Of a stretch of DNA of 64,000 nucleotides, positions 3,062 through 64,000 are shown piece after piece. The position numbers and the translations under genes are program-made. Source of the stretch: an uncultured Pirellulaceae bacterium (GTDB lineage: Bacteria; Planctomycetota; Planctomycetia; Pirellulales; Pirellulaceae); assembly GCA_937944405.1 (NCBI GenBank), contig CALDYR010000016.1:1-64000 (forward strand), given 5' to 3'. Under the pieces are notes generated by a model. It was not told where the DNA came from, made no database searches, and worked only from the letters and a program-made list of their open reading frames with translations. How positions within the stretch are numbered: the stretch's first letter is position 1; each line of letters begins with the position of its first letter.

Positions 3062-3237
3062 GGTGAGCCGTTGGCGGGGAATTTTAGTGTCAAGCTTCGG
3101 AATCGTAGTTGGATTGGCCCGAACTCCCGCTGGCTGTGTTTGCCGGAATTTGGGGGCAATCCCCCTGACATGCACTGGAAACGGTAAGCTTGGGGCGTGC
3201 TCGGTGCCACAAAGTTCCGGGAAGAACCAAAAGAAAA
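3062..3237 (-). repeat. dispersed intergenic repeat, copy B (minus orientation)
   Basis: Read on the minus strand, this begins GGTTCTTCCCGGAACTTTG and continues through GGCACCGAGCACGCC, AAGCTTACCGTTT, a GGGGGATTGCCC block, CAACTACGATT and CACTAAAAT. The same ordered blocks appear at 12633-12762 and in part at 47956-48115. It sits between fabD and fabG, opposite to their transcription. No protein is encoded. Confidence 0.6.
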
Positions 3238-6041: not shown

Positions 6042-6543
6042 CTTCACTGGTAGCGATTGACCTAAAAGTCGTGTTATCCGTTGCTTTCAGTCGCAGCCGA
6101 CAATTGTCCGTATTCGTTTTCAAAGCGCTGTCGTTTGCGTAATCGACCGCAGCGCGGTATCTGAAAGCTTGTCTCCGTTAAGGCAAGGGCAATAATTCAA
6201 TGTCAGGTTGATGATCTAATTGATGCCAGCCTGTTGTCGATTTGATCCATTGACCGGTTTTCTCATAAGGACCACTTACACGGCTGTTTCAATTCCCGAC
6301 TTTGAAACACAACCAATTCAAGCCATTATGGCCTGTCGAGGTTGCTTTTTGGGTTGGTTGCCACGGTTTAAGTAAGCAATAGAGAATGTAAAATCGAATT
6401 TTGCGAATTTACGATCTCGTATTGAACGCACCAAATCAACCGGAACAGTGCCTGGCATTGGACTTGCTGTGTGTTCGGTAACAAGTTTTCATGCGTGGTT
6501 CAATGGACCACCGAACTACCTTCCACCTCCCAAGGAAATTAAG
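6042..6543. other. intergenic region, nothing recognised
   Basis: About 500 bp between fabF and the glycine-rich protein gene. I see no ORF with a ribosome site, no RNA signature and no strong hairpin. It presumably holds the promoter of the downstream gene; the part from 6360 to 6430 is A/T-rich. Confidence 0.4.
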
Positions 6544-6891
6544 ATGAAACGTTTTTTAGCAGTAGCTGTTGCCGTTGTGGCGATGTTCGTGTTCACTTCT
6601 CAAGAATCACAAGCCCAATTTTACCGTGGCGGTTCTGGATTTAGCATTGGTTTTGGAGGTGGCGGCTTCAACCGCGGATTTGGCGGCTACGGTGGCGGAT
6701 TTAATCGCGGTTTCCATGGCGGAGGATTTAATCGCGGATTTAGTAGCTTTGGCGGAGGATTTAATCGCGGTTTCTACGGAGGTGGCCGGTCAGTAAGTTA
6801 CAACAGCTTTCGCCCGACCTATTACCGCCCAACCTACAGTCGCTCGTTTTACGGTGGCGGTTTTTCAGGCGGACGCAGTTGTGGTTATTAG
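6544..6891 (+). CDS. secreted Gly/Phe/Asn/Arg repeat protein
   Basis: A 115-residue small protein with a clear signal peptide (MKRF, hydrophobic stretch, then SQAQ with likely cleavage after residue 24). The mature part is low-complexity and basic: GFNRGF recurs four times, at about residues 41-46, 52-57, 61-66 and 72-77, spaced by glycine runs, followed by RPTYYRPTYSR and a GGGFSGG tail ending in one Cys. The ATG at 6544 has AAGGA about 9 bp upstream, so the longer open frame from 6448 is not used. Similar glycine-rich exported proteins occur in planctomycetes, but the function is unknown. A structural or surface-associated role is inference only. Confidence 0.75.
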   Translation: MKRFLAVAVAVVAMFVFTSQESQAQFYRGGSGFSIGFGGGGFNRGFGGYGGGFNRGFHGGGFNRGFSSFGGGFNRGFYGGGRSVSYNSFRPTYYRPTYSRSFYGGGFSGGRSCGY

Positions 6892-6936
6892 TCACTCAAG
6901 TCACTCAAGTCACTCAAGTCACTCAAGTCACTCAAT
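6892..6936 (+). repeat. five tandem copies of a 9-bp unit
   Basis: The unit tcactcaag is repeated four times exactly and a fifth time with the last base changed, starting one base after the stop codon of the glycine-rich gene. There are no spacers, so this is a simple tandem repeat, not a CRISPR array. Confidence 0.9.
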
Positions 6937-7180
6937 GTGACGCCAATTTGAGCCTTGTTAACAAGGGTCTCTCCCCAAATTTGGCGCATGGGGCGCATGC
7001 CACGCTTACCCATACGGTTGAATGAAGGAGGGGCCAAAAATTCTGCGGATTGACCTGAAGCCTGACATAAACCGAACCATCGGGAAGTCTGGCGAACCCC
7101 ACTACGATTTACAGGCTGGGAATTCTGGTGAATTCCACTGCGAGTTCTAGGCCTGCTATAAAAATCCGAGAACCATCAGC
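6937..7180. repeat. probable degraded intergenic repeat copy, with internal duplication
   Basis: Contains a perfect 14-bp palindrome at 6953-6966 and a pair of related segments (TCTGGCGAACCCCACTACG near 7089 and TCTGGTGAATTCCACTGCG near 7124). These resemble the CCCGAATTCCACTACGATTT block of the repeat at 12633-12762. The end AAAAATCCGAGAACC also matches the end of that repeat (AAAATCCATGAAGAACC). No credible ORF. Confidence 0.4.
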
Positions 7181-11301: not shown

Positions 11302-11421
11302 GAATTCTCTGCCCAGTTTTCGGGCTGCGAAGGTATGACGTTACAATGTTTGTCGATAGAGTATAACGCTTGAGCCCGTTTTTCCGTAGATAGTCGCCTG
11401 CACGGCGGTGGGGCATTGCTG

Positions 11422-12630
11422 ATGAGTTTCCTTGCGTCAATCTGGTCCACTTTATGCGAACTATCGCCTTGGTTGTTGTTGGGAATGTTTTTCTCAGGAC
11501 TGTTGCATGTCGTTTTACCGAAAAAATTTGTACGCCAAAGCCTGCGCGGACTTCCGGGAGTACTCAAATCGGTAGCCATTGGCGTCCCGTTGCCCCTATG
11601 TTCATGCGGAGTGATACCGGCGGGAATTGGCCTAAAAAAAGACGGAGCCAGCGATGGCGCGACGGTCGGTTTTCTGATCAGCACTCCTCAGACGGGAGTC
11701 GATTCGATGTTGGTAAGCGCGACGTTTTTTGGATGGCCGTTTGCAATCTTTAAACTCGCTGCTGCCGCGGTGATGGGAATCGTCGGTGGCGTTTGGATTG
11801 ACCGCAAACCCATTGAAGCCGCAACGATCGATGATTCTATCTCCCCCTCCCCTGCCCCGCACACCGACGAACAAAGACGCTGCTGGAGTCGACTATTGCC
11901 GCATGCGATTGATATGCTGCGGTCTATCTGGGTGTGGTTGGTGATCGGGATCTTCGTTTCCGCAGCCATCAACCAATTCAATACCGCACCACTGACCGCT
12001 GAGATTAATCATTGGGGATTGCTGCCGGCGATGCTGTTGGTGTTAGTGTTTTCCATTCCGCTGTATGTTTGTGCGACCGCTTCGGTCCCGATCGCTGCGG
12101 CGCTGGTGAATTCAGGGTTTCCACCGGCCGTGGCGTTGGTGTTTCTGATGGCCGGACCGGCAACGAACGTCGCCACAATGGGAGCTATCCGTTCCAACTT
12201 AGGCACCCGATCACTGTTGATTTATTTGGTGACGATTATTGTGGGGAGCCTATCTGCGGCCTATCTTTTCGATGCGCTGACCCTAGTTACAACGGCCACT
12301 GGTACCGTCCACATCCATAACGTAACCGCGTGGTGGGCTCAGTTGTCGGCGATGATCGTGTTGGGATTGATTGGATACTTCGTGTTTGAAAACCTGATAA
12401 AGTGTCGGCGCTTCAAAGCCCCCCAAGAAAACGCCCTTCACCAAACGATTTCAATCGACGGCATGTCGTGTGGCAACTGCGTAAGGAAATTGGAGACGCT
12501 CATTCAAAATCAAACGGGCGTCGAATCGGTCTACGTGAATCTTGCCGACGGTCAAGCGACGGTGGTAGGCGACTTCGATCTTGAACAGTTGAAGAAAACG
12601 ATTACCGCCAGCGGATTTGTGCCGCATTAA
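11422..12630 (+). CDS. SO_0444-like Cu/Zn efflux permease fused to HMA domain
   Basis: A 402-residue inner-membrane permease (ArsP_1/DUF318-like fold) with about eight membrane segments. Key features are LPLCSCGVIPAG at about residues 57-68, the family's cysteine motif, and the matching second-half blocks PLYVCATASVPIAAAL and LMAGPATNVA. A heavy-metal-associated domain at about 330-400 carries GMSCGNC, the usual Cu(I)-binding pair of cysteines. The N-terminal part matches the SO_0444 Cu/Zn efflux family. The fused HMA domain likely delivers or senses the metal. The ATG at 11422 follows GGTGGGG; a TTG six bases earlier is also open. Confidence 0.85.
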   Translation: MSFLASIWSTLCELSPWLLLGMFFSGLLHVVLPKKFVRQSLRGLPGVLKSVAIGVPLPLCSCGVIPAGIGLKKDGASDGATVGFLISTPQTGVDSMLVSATFFGWPFAIFKLAAAAVMGIVGGVWIDRKPIEAATIDDSISPSPAPHTDEQRRCWSRLLPHAIDMLRSIWVWLVIGIFVSAAINQFNTAPLTAEINHWGLLPAMLLVLVFSIPLYVCATASVPIAAALVNSGFPPAVALVFLMAGPATNVATMGAIRSNLGTRSLLIYLVTIIVGSLSAAYLFDALTLVTTATGTVHIHNVTAWWAQLSAMIVLGLIGYFVFENLIKCRRFKAPQENALHQTISIDGMSCGNCVRKLETLIQNQTGVESVYVNLADGQATVVGDFDLEQLKKTITASGFVPH

Positions 12631-12632
12631 AG

Positions 12633-12762
12633 TTTGGTTCTTCCCGGGACTCTGTGGCACCGCACACGCCGCAAAGTTACCGTTTCGAGTGACTGATAAG
12701 GGGATTGCCCGAATTCCACTACGATTTCCAGACTTGCCACTAACTAAAATCCATGAAGAACC
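12633..12762 (+). repeat. dispersed intergenic repeat, copy A, with terminal inverted repeats
   Basis: Starts GGTTCTTCCCGGGACTCTG and ends ATCCATGAAGAACC, so the ends GGTTCTTC and GAAGAACC are perfect 8-bp inverted repeats. Inside, the blocks GTGGCACCG, CACGCC, AAAGTTACCGTTTC, GGGGATTGCCC, CCACTACGATTTCC and CTAAAATCC match the copy at 3062-3237 (minus) in the same order. It fills the gap between the permease and slyX. Confidence 0.65.
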
Positions 12763-12781
12763 TAAAGTTTAGAGAGCAGCC

Positions 12782-12994
12782 ATGACCGATCTTGAGAAAC
12801 GTGCGACCCATTTAGAGATGTCGGTCGCCCACCTACAACATGATCTTGAGACACTTGAAAAAGCAGTGCTCGACAACACCGAGAAGCTCGATAGGGTGCT
12901 CGCGGCGCTGGAGCGCCTGACCCAAAAAGTCAGCTCCGCAGAGGAACCAGCCGAACAACGCGATTTAGAGGATGAAAAACCACCGCATTATTGA
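12782..12994 (+). CDS. slyX: SlyX family protein
   Basis: A 70-residue coiled-coil protein. The heptad-rich helix runs over residues 3-50 and the C-terminal EKPPHY is the hallmark of the SlyX family. E. coli slyX has no established biochemical role; it lies near slyD there. A ribosome site GAGAGCAG precedes the ATG. It is convergent with ilvE, about 125 bp away. Confidence 0.85.
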   Translation: MTDLEKRATHLEMSVAHLQHDLETLEKAVLDNTEKLDRVLAALERLTQKVSSAEEPAEQRDLEDEKPPHY

Positions 12995-27808: not shown

Positions 27809-28032
27809 GGACGCCTTTTCGGCCGTGTTCTGGCCAATCTCACTACGATCTCGAAACTTAGTTCAGCAAAGTTTCTCTTCGGTGTTTTGGCCTTGGCATG
27901 TCATAGCCCGGACGTCCGTGCGTTTCAAACCGAAAATACTAGTTTGGGTGGTCGAACGCGGATCAACAGTATCGGCGAATTTACCTTTGAGGCTTAATTG
28001 CTGATGGTTGTCGATGGGAAAGTCAATTGGCG

Positions 28033-47841: not shown

Positions 47842-47943
47842 ATGGCCAAACCAAGCCACAAAGTTAAGAAAGCTAATCACGGCAAACGCCCAGCGAACAA
47901 CCGTGGACGCAAAATCAAGAACAAGAAGATCAAGACTCCGTAG
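47842..47943 (+). CDS. 33-residue very basic microprotein
   Basis: A 33-residue protein, MAKPSHKVKKANHGK followed by RPANNRGRKIKNK and KIKTP, with about 14 Lys/Arg and no acidic residue. It has a good ribosome site (CGAGGA, about 8 bases before the ATG). The composition is that of small ribosome-associated proteins such as bTHX, but the sequence is different. It lies in a 580-bp gap between trpD and trmB, followed by repeat copy D and a terminator. Confidence 0.65.
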   Translation: MAKPSHKVKKANHGKRPANNRGRKIKNKKIKTP

Positions 47944-47955
47944 TCCTCTCTAATG

Positions 47956-48115
47956 GTTATTCCGGGAACTTTGCGGCTACAAGCACGCTCAAAGCTTGCT
48001 TTTCTCGGTGAAGGTAGTCGGGGGATGCAACCGTAGTCCCGTTAACACAGCCAGCGCCAATTGTGGCCAATCTCGCTACGATCGCAATGCGTGCCACCGG
48101 AATCCGGGAAACGCC
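47956..48115 (+). repeat. dispersed intergenic repeat, copy D
   Basis: GGTTATTCCGGGAACTTTGCGG, AAGCACGC, CAAAGCTTGC, GTCGGGGGAT, ACACAGCCAGCG, GGCCAATCTCGCTACGATCGC occur in the same order as in the copy at 3062-3237 (minus). It is diverged and ends near 48115. Confidence 0.55.
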
Positions 48116-62633: not shown

Positions 62634-63630
62634 GCCAAACCGACAGTGTTGTTGGCTATTGATGTCATTGAAGAACCAAGACTAAAACGGCGCCTCAAAT
62701 TGTTGCCATTAGTTTTCGATTCATTAGGGTAAAGCAGATGTTTTTGTTTTGAAGTCGGGCGCTGGTTTAGTGATTTCGTTTTAACAATGGGTATGAATGT
62801 TTTGCCGATTGATCAAACAGGTGTTCGTTGCGAACGTTTAGAAAACGATTCGGATTTCCCAAAGAGTGTATTTGCGGAACAGTTTCTCTAAAAAAAGGTT
62901 TTTTTTTAGAACAGCAACACGCGCAATCGACAGGCGCTTTTCGCATCGCAAAATGAAACAGCGTGAGGCTGTAAGTTTTACGAAATGTGCCAGGGAAATT
63001 TCAAACATTGTTGCGCAAGTTTCTTGGCACATCATTTTTCAGTGCCTGCCGCGTCGACAAGTGTCTGGTTGGAAGCCTGTTGGTGTTTCGGCCTCTCTGC
63101 GACACGTTTAAATGGATGCTTGTTGAAACGTCTTAAATTCCCCTGAAAAAGCGCGTTTTTTATATGGGGCGAAATTTGTGTCGATCCGATTTTGTTGCAT
63201 CGATGTCCACGCCGTTCTTTTTATTAAGCATCTCTTGAGAACGTTGCTAATTGGTAAGGAGAATCGAAATGGTTGAAAGGAGATTTACAACACAGTGCAA
63301 TTGAATTTACATCTGCGTGATAGGTTTTCGTTTTGTTCATTTGCGGAGTGAGTTGTTTCAATGAATCTTGGTAGTCGTCGCGGTGAAAAAAATTTACAAA
63401 ACGAGCAAAACAACATTGAAAAGTTCTGGCGGTTCTCTAAAACTTATTTCGTTGTCAACCTGTCGGTGGAAGTTTTGTGCTTTCATCCATCACCAATGAC
63501 GGTGTGTTGAACAGGTTATCATTCGAATCACAACGTGTGGTTTTATTTCGAATGGCGAGTGAGTCATCAAGGCTTTGACGTAAAGCTAGACCGGACTCTC
63601 TCTCCACGGTCTATTAATGGAGGACGTCCT
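62634..63630. other. long gene-sparse, A/T-rich region
   Basis: About 1 kb before the histone-like gene, richer in T and A than the neighbouring coding DNA. TCTAAAAAAA and TTTTTTTAGA (62887-62910) form an A/T hairpin. Two small translatable-looking ORFs occur: an 11-codon one at 63270 with AAGGAG before it, and a 49-codon one at 63361-63510. No known RNA gene recognised. It may be the long leader of the downstream gene. Confidence 0.4.
63361..63510 (+). CDS. possible 49-residue small ORF
   Basis: ATG AAT CTT opens a 49-codon frame with the product starting MNLGSRRGEKNLQNEQ. GGAG lies 12 bases before it, farther than ideal. There is no hydrophobic segment or known motif. It could be a leader peptide of the histone-like gene or chance. 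Confidence 0.2.
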   Translation: MNLGSRRGEKNLQNEQNNIEKFWRFSKTYFVVNLSVEVLCFHPSPMTVC

Positions 63631-63873
63631 GTGGCCAAGAAAAAAGCGAAGAAAAAAGTTACTAAAAAGGAGGCAACTAAAAAGAAGGTTGTCAAGAAAA
63701 AAGTAGCAAAGAAGAAGGCTGTGAAAAAAGCAGCCAAGAAGAAGGCGACCAAAAAGAAGGTTGTTAAGAAAAAAGTAGCGAAGAAAAAAGTAGCGAAGAA
63801 GAAGGTCGTGAAGAAAGCTGCTAAGAAAGTCACGAAGAAGGCTAAAAAGAAAGTCGCGAAGAAGAAAAAGTAA
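63631..63873 (+). CDS. histone H1-like lysine/alanine-rich protein
   Basis: An 80-residue protein made almost only of Lys, Ala, Val and Thr, in repeats such as KKVAKKK, KKVVKKKV and KKAAKK, like the C-terminal tail of eukaryotic H1 and bacterial Hc1/AlgP-like proteins. It should bind and compact DNA. The start is GTG at 63631, fixed by GGAGG at 63619-63623; the frame is open from 63535 but the upstream part has a different composition. A perfect terminator follows. Confidence 0.85.
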   Translation: MAKKKAKKKVTKKEATKKKVVKKKVAKKKAVKKAAKKKATKKKVVKKKVAKKKVAKKKVVKKAAKKVTKKAKKKVAKKKK

Positions 63874-63909: not shown

Positions 63910-63937
63910 AGGGTCGCCAGTGGCGACCCTAAGTTTT
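63910..63937 (+). terminator. rho-independent terminator
   Basis: AGGGTCGCC and GGCGACCCT form a perfect 9-bp stem around AGT, followed by AAGTTTTT. It ends the histone-like gene. Confidence 0.85.
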
Positions 63938-64000
63938 TGGTGCTTCCCGAAATGTTGCGGCACCGCGAATGCCCAAAGCTTGCGACTAAAATCTATGAAG
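63936..64000 (+). repeat. dispersed intergenic repeat, short copy C at window edge
   Basis: GGTGCTTCCCGAAATGTTG, GGCACCGCGAATGCC, AAAGCTTGCGACTAAAATC and TATGAAG match, in order, the two ends of copy A (GGTTCTTCCC..., CTAAAATCCATGAAGAACC) with the middle missing. It runs to the last base and may continue. Confidence 0.55.

Follow-up and report, generated by a model that had tools for sequence, protein, structure and literature searches.

An intergenic repeat family of a Pirellulaceae genome is very probably an ISL3-mobilised MITE with a nested GTAG REP doublet

Several intergenic gaps in the genome of an uncultured Pirellulaceae bacterium share a short, diverged repeat, which raises the question of what kind of element this is and what moved it. 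The window analysed here is the first 64,000 nucleotides of contig CALDYR010000016.1 (GenBank assembly GCA_937944405.1), for which an earlier note had left three readings side by side: a MITE-like element, a folded RNA or a regulatory module specific to the lineage. Sequence comparison argues very strongly that the repeats are one non-autonomous MITE family of ~158 bp, which an ISL3-family DDE transposase would have mobilised in trans. The REPIN-like doublet at its centre, a pair of inverted REP hairpins tagged with GTAG, is likely a nested passenger of the MITE.

A BLAST search of the source genome (G000; a 93%-complete draft of 3,951,319 bases, or 3.95 Mb, in 161 contigs) with the first window copy (copy A) as query gave 41 matches, and 30 copies brought into one orientation aligned as a single family with a consensus of ~158 bp. 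L013 was omitted from the 30 fetched copies in alignment A1, and the sequence-only profile R1 comprises 29 copies, namely copy A and 28 on other contigs. At E ≤ 0.01, R1 gave at least 145 matches in the source genome, merging to 142 places, which is a lower bound as scoring covered 150 of the 1266 first-look candidates; both ends of the model were reached in 83 matches, the left end only in 32, the right end only in 23 and neither in 7. The further copies that the earlier note had anticipated are therefore abundant, and all six places that it listed (3062, 12633, 47956, 63936, 6937 and 27832) were matched, the last of them weakly when taken alone (E 0.004), while the limits of copy A move from 3062-3237 to about 3069-3228.

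With 106 candidates scored in each of 28 genomes of the genus, R1 at E ≤ 0.001 matched six (106 matches in G000, 98 in G002, 26 in G014, 11 in G006, 7 in G004 and 5 in G001); the other 22, which serve as a negative control, gave none among their scored candidates. Elements with both ends were present among the loci fetched from G002 (L377, L382), G006 (L378) and G001 (L385), and ISL3-type ends were absent at the three places fetched from G004 (L057, L062, L386). The proposal that the repeat is specific to this lineage is thus nearly right for the full element, but it fails for the core, which is spread across Planctomycetota.

The consensus has no coding capacity and is bounded by imperfect terminal inverted repeats of 24 bp (GGYTCTTCCCGGA...TGGCA), in which the left end (GGTTCTTCCCGGAACTTTGTGGCA) and the right end read inward (GGCTCTTCCCGGATTTTAGTGGCA) are alike at 20 of 24 positions. 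What had been described as an 8-bp terminal inverted repeat of copy A is actually the family's imperfect ~24-bp repeat, degraded at the right end of that copy. The centre of the element consists of GTAGTGGGATTCGCCCGAATTCC, about 17 nt and GGAATTCTGGCCAATCCCACTAC, where each half is GTAGT followed by a 7-bp hairpin with the loop GCCA (undecayed half-core GTAGT-GGGATTC-GCCA-GAATTCC).

Some copies indeed lack the middle, as had been noticed, for two separate reasons. Forms of 116-137 bp and three of 103-104 bp have deletions within or adjacent to the central hairpin, while a recurrent core-less form of 65-67 bp has lost everything that lies between two direct repeats of AAGCTTGCC, the whole doublet included. 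This form recurs at different sites, with both ends present in 6 of 20 further fetched places (L429, L432 and L443-L446) and at 63939 in the window. Its flanking duplications match at 8/8 bases in L429 and the window copy, 6/8 in three others, 3/8 in L446 and 2/8 in L444.

Table 1. MITE copies, REP unit and target-site duplications located in the window
Feature	Position	Strand	Basis
MITE copy A, near-full-length	3069..3228	-	R1 3079-3228, model 1-148, 118.8 bits; the copy is itself in the model
REP unit within copy A	3105-3129	+	REP pattern match
MITE copy, rearranged	6965..7177	+	R1 6967-7117 (model 3-134) and 7118-7171 (model 99-152)
Left target-site duplication TAAAGTTT	12628..12635	.	Sequence
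MITE copy, 127-bp short form	12636..12762	+	R1 12636-12738 (12636-12733 in second scan); alignment
Right target-site duplication TAAAGTTT	12763..12770	.	8/8 identical to left
MITE fragment, right REP and adjoining bases	27826..27860	+	R1 model 102-136, E 0.004; weak alone
MITE copy, full-length, diverged	47955..48115	+	R1 47955-48114, model 1-157, 81.5 bits
Left target-site duplication AAGTTTTT	63931..63938	.	L324
MITE, core-less short form, 67 bp	63939..64000, on to contig position 64005	+	R1 63939-63984; L324 sequence

The window copies (Table 1) illustrate most of these forms. The outer end of copy A is an extrapolation to model position 158, and the outer limits of the rearranged copy are likewise extrapolated; the latter starts with a left end, continues with the right REP twice in direct orientation (7081-7105 and ~7119-7141) and closes with a right end terminating in ATAAAAATCCGAGAACC. 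The short form at 12636 carries its deletion within the central hairpin, and its left duplication includes the TAA codon that terminates the upstream ORF (11416-12630). For the core-less copy, the identical right AAGTTTTT lies outside the window at contig position 64006-64013 (L324). A clear duplication is absent from four of the six window copies, among them the full-length copy at 47955, which is not one of those with at least 7/8 matching bases, and this counts against a mobile-element reading. A stop codon lies no more than ~75 bp before each of the six, and for the copy at 47955 it is that of a 33-codon ORF (47842-47943). The window also contains a repetitive lysine/alanine-rich ORF with direct repeats (63535-63873), presumably histone-H1-like in look, short direct repeats (6657-6773) within the ORF at 6448-6891, and tandem GTCACTCAA units (6890-6937) downstream of the stop of that ORF.

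Target-site duplication was assessed across the source genome by comparing the 8 bases immediately outside the left end with those immediately outside the right end, using all mixed copy pairs as the control. This was applied to 83 of 98 R1 matches (model start ≤6, model end ≥148, flank ≥20 nt), and second matches from overlapping loci were left out. The flanks matched at a mean of 4.80 bases compared with 2.50 in the control, and at least 7/8 bases matched in 23 of the 83 copies when the ends were fixed by the model (0.23 expected), so the target-site duplication that the earlier note had proposed to look for was found, at 8 bp. Windows of 7 and 9 bases at the same ends gave only a small excess (6 against 0.80 and 1 against 0.04, respectively), as a duplication of 8 bp would predict. 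Allowing a play of ±2 bases raised the count to 32 of 83 (2.57 expected), a value reached in none of 10,000 permutations (largest 9). With fixed ends, fewer than 7/8 bases match in 60 of the 83 copies, which weighs against a mobile element. The nine bases on either side are rich in A+T (0.66-0.84 on the left and 0.69-0.83 on the right, compared with 0.40-0.59 farther out and 0.48 in the window), a stretch that corresponds to the duplicated eight bases and one more.

An unoccupied site was found in a relative, although for a single gap: in the congener G011, the flanking genes are collinear with the window and the copy at 12636-12762 is absent from the orthologous gap, with flanks too diverged for the junction to be placed at base level. 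The gap orthologous to 12631-12782 in G002 (L364) contains GTAGTGGGATT, which may be what is left of a REP at that position. All 20 copies fetched from G002, which were chosen among full-length matches, are 158 bp long with a mean pairwise identity of 96.9%, and 11 of them have a duplication of at least 7/8 bases (0.11 expected). The mean identity of 86 copies in the source genome is 67%, so that G002 underwent a recent burst, whereas the source genome holds an old, decayed population. Four fresh insertions in G002 (L387, L393, L396 and L405) lie in a GC-rich hairpin of the ACCCTCCCGAAGGGAGGGT type instead of AT-rich DNA, a possible second target preference.

The ends of the MITE are also the ends of ISL3 elements. 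The source genome has 12 matches to PF01610, the ISL3 DDE domain, at nine places, none of which spans the whole domain. At five of these, a MITE-type end occurs at the distance predicted from the spacing of an intact element in G006, namely 531 bp before the domain at L033 and 62-65 bp behind it at L032, L035, L037 and L041; the end at L033 differs at 2 of 24 positions from either MITE end. A degraded MITE-type end with 3 mismatches is present at L039, and none was found at the ISL3 places on C71 and C77 and at one on C37. The intact G006 element (L213:511-1819; 1,309 bp) is flanked by an exact 8-bp duplication (TTTCTTTT), has end-to-domain spacings of 532 and 63 bp, the same as in the fragments, and encodes a 410-aa ISL3 transposase (L213:572-1804; NF033550, 320.2 bits with a cut-off of 180) with the domains PF01610 (DDE), PF13542 (HTH) and PF14690 (zinc ribbon). 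ISL3 elements in general have GG-type ends and generate 8-bp duplications.

Since these ends are common to the MITE and to ISL3 elements, an ISL3 transposase most likely moved the family in trans. Such a transposase would bind the shared 24-bp ends and insert the MITE mostly at AT-rich 8-mers, often right behind stop codons, duplicating 8 bp. PF01610 is absent from G002 despite its fresh MITE burst (98 matches among 106 scored), which is a gap instead of a refutation because this draft is 89% complete and breaks at repeats. The fetched ISL3 loci of G025, G011 and G001, some of which have full-length genes, gave no MITE-type ends with a 2-mismatch pattern that misses more diverged ends or ends past a contig edge; the pairing of end and enzyme therefore rests on the fragments of the source genome and on G006, G012, G013 and G015.

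The hairpins at the centre of the MITE have a distribution of their own. A REP 25-mer (up to 3 mismatches) was found 69 times in G000, 126 in G002, 34 in G014, 22 in G006, 9 in G004 and once each in G001 and G012. The other 33 of the 40 genomes had none, and no genome contained the reversed pattern. Across the GTDB set, the exact REP 23-mer was present in at least 120 stretches, all 120 in records titled planctomycete. The 80 of these stretches that were analysed contained 99 exact REPs, and for 72 REPs an inverted partner lay no more than 90 nt away. With the query set aside, the stem is fully paired in 10 of 26 distinct REP types, compared with 3.6 expected when halves are dealt randomly and kinship is ignored. 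The compensated stems (GGGACTC/GAGTTCC, GGATTTC/GAAATCC, GGACTTC/GAAGTCC and GGATCTC/GAGATCC) indicate that the single REP hairpin is, or formerly was, preserved in other parts of the phylum.

The doublet also occurs in elements whose ends are not of the ISL3 type. In Rhodopirellula maiorica SM1, it lies in a different element with ends of ~20 bp (GCCCAATGCCATCTACTTTGG / CAAAGTAGATGGCATTGGGC; 13 copies aligned), places of which include L095, L109, L110, L112, L123 and L130. In HKST-UBA45 (L407-L426), it is central to a ~120-bp element that looks like a second REPIN-cored MITE and has both its ends at 12 of the 20 places retrieved. Because CTAG is present on nearly all flanks of the latter (11/12 left and 12/12 right), duplication and element end are indistinguishable there. 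Closer to the MITE is a 153-bp element of G014 (L384:1497-1649), within a T-tract, which carries a REP doublet between ISL3-type ends that have diverged (GGTCCTTGCCGGGATTTAACGGG) and is a sister subfamily.

A different explanation for the family as a whole would be that a structured RNA or regulatory element under selection spread and has been retained close to gene ends, for example as a 3'-end mRNA stabiliser or terminator. The large central hairpin and the gene context favour this: among 68 copies with enough flank, 38 have a facing stop codon no more than 100 bp away (ORF ≥150 aa; 0.09 for random window segments) and 7 are mostly inside such an ORF (0.77 for random segments). However, no window sequence matched Rfam at the gathering score, RNAalifold gave no consensus pairs for 29 copies, and in alignment A2 (97 distinct rows) pairing was at the level of shuffled controls in the doublet stem (0.733 compared with 0.728), left REP (0.758 and 0.760), right REP (0.627 and 0.633) and terminal inverted repeats (0.673 and 0.678), with no excess of double changes. 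The absence of covariation among its own copies argues that the MITE is not a selected RNA, and the folded RNA that the earlier note had entertained finds no backing here. Nor is a regulatory module needed, as the position near gene ends is explained by AT-rich target choice together with the loss of harmful insertions into genes, and we regard this whole line of explanation as highly improbable. The MITE-like option, by comparison, is borne out by the ISL3-common terminal repeats, the 8-bp duplications, the unoccupied gap and the burst in a relative.

The remaining rivals concern the mover and the origin of the core. The repeat could be a REP/REPIN family that owes its mobility to a RAYT (Y1 transposase), its outer parts being merely conserved flanks. 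The GTAG tag and the compensated hairpins speak for this, as do doublets that lack ISL3-type ends at all three places examined in G004 and at one or two places in G014. As the mover of the outer element, a RAYT is contradicted by the 8-bp duplications at outer ends that equal those of ISL3 elements. Furthermore, Y1_Tnp (PF01797) is present in 19 of the 28 genus genomes but absent from the source genome and from G064, which has 103 REPs, and no paired GTAGTGG REP flanks the genes at 60 Y1_Tnp loci (30 of 84 and 30 of 50 matches, with at least one gene counted in both sets, as G065 is G002). One of these loci, L089, has a single GTAGTGG match with 5/7 pairs, while Y1_Tnp genes at L067, L069, L329 and L334 are flanked by another REP type, GTAGCC plus stem, possibly the RAYT-linked REPs of those genomes. 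RAYT mobility of the repeat therefore seems very remote, and as no cognate RAYT emerged among the 60 loci, the doublet is called REPIN-like here and not a member of the REPINs. A further alternative is that the core is not foreign at all, the GTAG hairpins being an inner palindrome of the MITE and free REPs the remains of decayed copies. This fits the position of 64 of the 69 REPs of the source genome inside model matches, the short forms as products of an unstable core, and G014, where most matches are core-only, yet L384 has both diverged ISL3-type ends and L380 has one. Against it, the same 23-mer forms the core of the unrelated-ended elements of R. maiorica and HKST-UBA45, KLAP7 has 23-mer clusters with no ISL3-type ends nearby, and the core-less form exists with duplications of its own, so we consider this origin unlikely. 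The preferred reading remains that a REPIN-like doublet became nested in the MITE, instead of the reverse, and would have spread as its passenger.

On a wider scale, we suggest with some reserve that GTAG doublets may be a recurrent core module of Planctomycetota MITEs with unrelated ends, riding several DDE-type transposons: the ISL3 type here, a GCCCAATGCCATCTAC type in R. maiorica, a CTAG-flanked type in HKST-UBA45 and possibly a CTAGAGG...TTTCAAAAC type. If so, the doublet would be spread by DDE carriers instead of, or besides, a RAYT, as the inner layer of a two-layer parasite that outlives its carriers.

MITEs and REPINs are each already known, and the repeat is an ordinary mobile one with an unusual nested build. 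It resembles bacterial IS-derived MITEs (RUP, NEMIS, ERIC, Nezha, MITEAba12 and others) in being short, gene-less and mostly intergenic, with IS-like terminal inverted repeats, target duplications and a high copy number, but differs from them in its ISL3-family ends, 8-bp duplications and GTAG-REP doublet core. Its partner family, ISL3 (IS204/IS1001/IS1096/IS1165), combines GG-ended repeats with a transposase that has DDE, HTH and zinc-ribbon domains, and the G006 element is flanked by an AT-rich duplication of 8 bp, whereas the MITE itself encodes nothing. The main text of a review of prokaryotic MITEs (PMC10969869) has neither 'ISL3' nor 'REPIN' as a whole word, and no published description of an ISL3-ended MITE with a REP core was found in the open-licence PMC literature.

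The core shares its GTAG tag, short compensated stem and inverted pairing with GTAG REPs and REPINs, but has no cognate RAYT for the GTAGTGG type in the examined loci and sits inside an ISL3-ended MITE. In its passages on REP families, Di Nocera et al. 2013 (PMC3733652) describes GTAG REPs in several phyla and names R. baltica among the species with several families, of which the GTAGTGG REP may be one; the REPIN and REPtron concepts are treated in PMC6006769. A close parallel in those passages of PMC3733652 is the GTAG-15 family of Anabaena variabilis, whose dimers are regularly placed within longer palindromes; H. neapolitanus CGTC-1 likewise has dimers in longer palindromes, an arrangement that the paper says was not investigated in detail, and T. 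roseum GTAG-23 is also mentioned. No tie of the A. variabilis palindromes to a transposase or a duplication is drawn in these passages, whereas both are present here.

The family thus provides a clearly bounded example of nesting between two mobile-type repeats, and it explains a repeat that was otherwise open to annotation as an RNA or regulatory motif. In the source genome, the system looks dead or dying, because its ISL3 genes are fragments, the 93%-complete draft has no Y1 transposase and the copies drift. Within a single genus, G002 shows a fresh burst and the source genome a fossil population, and filled 158-bp elements occur beside core-less forms of 65-67 bp. Nesting of this kind would give REP-type hairpins a route to persist in genomes where no RAYT was found.
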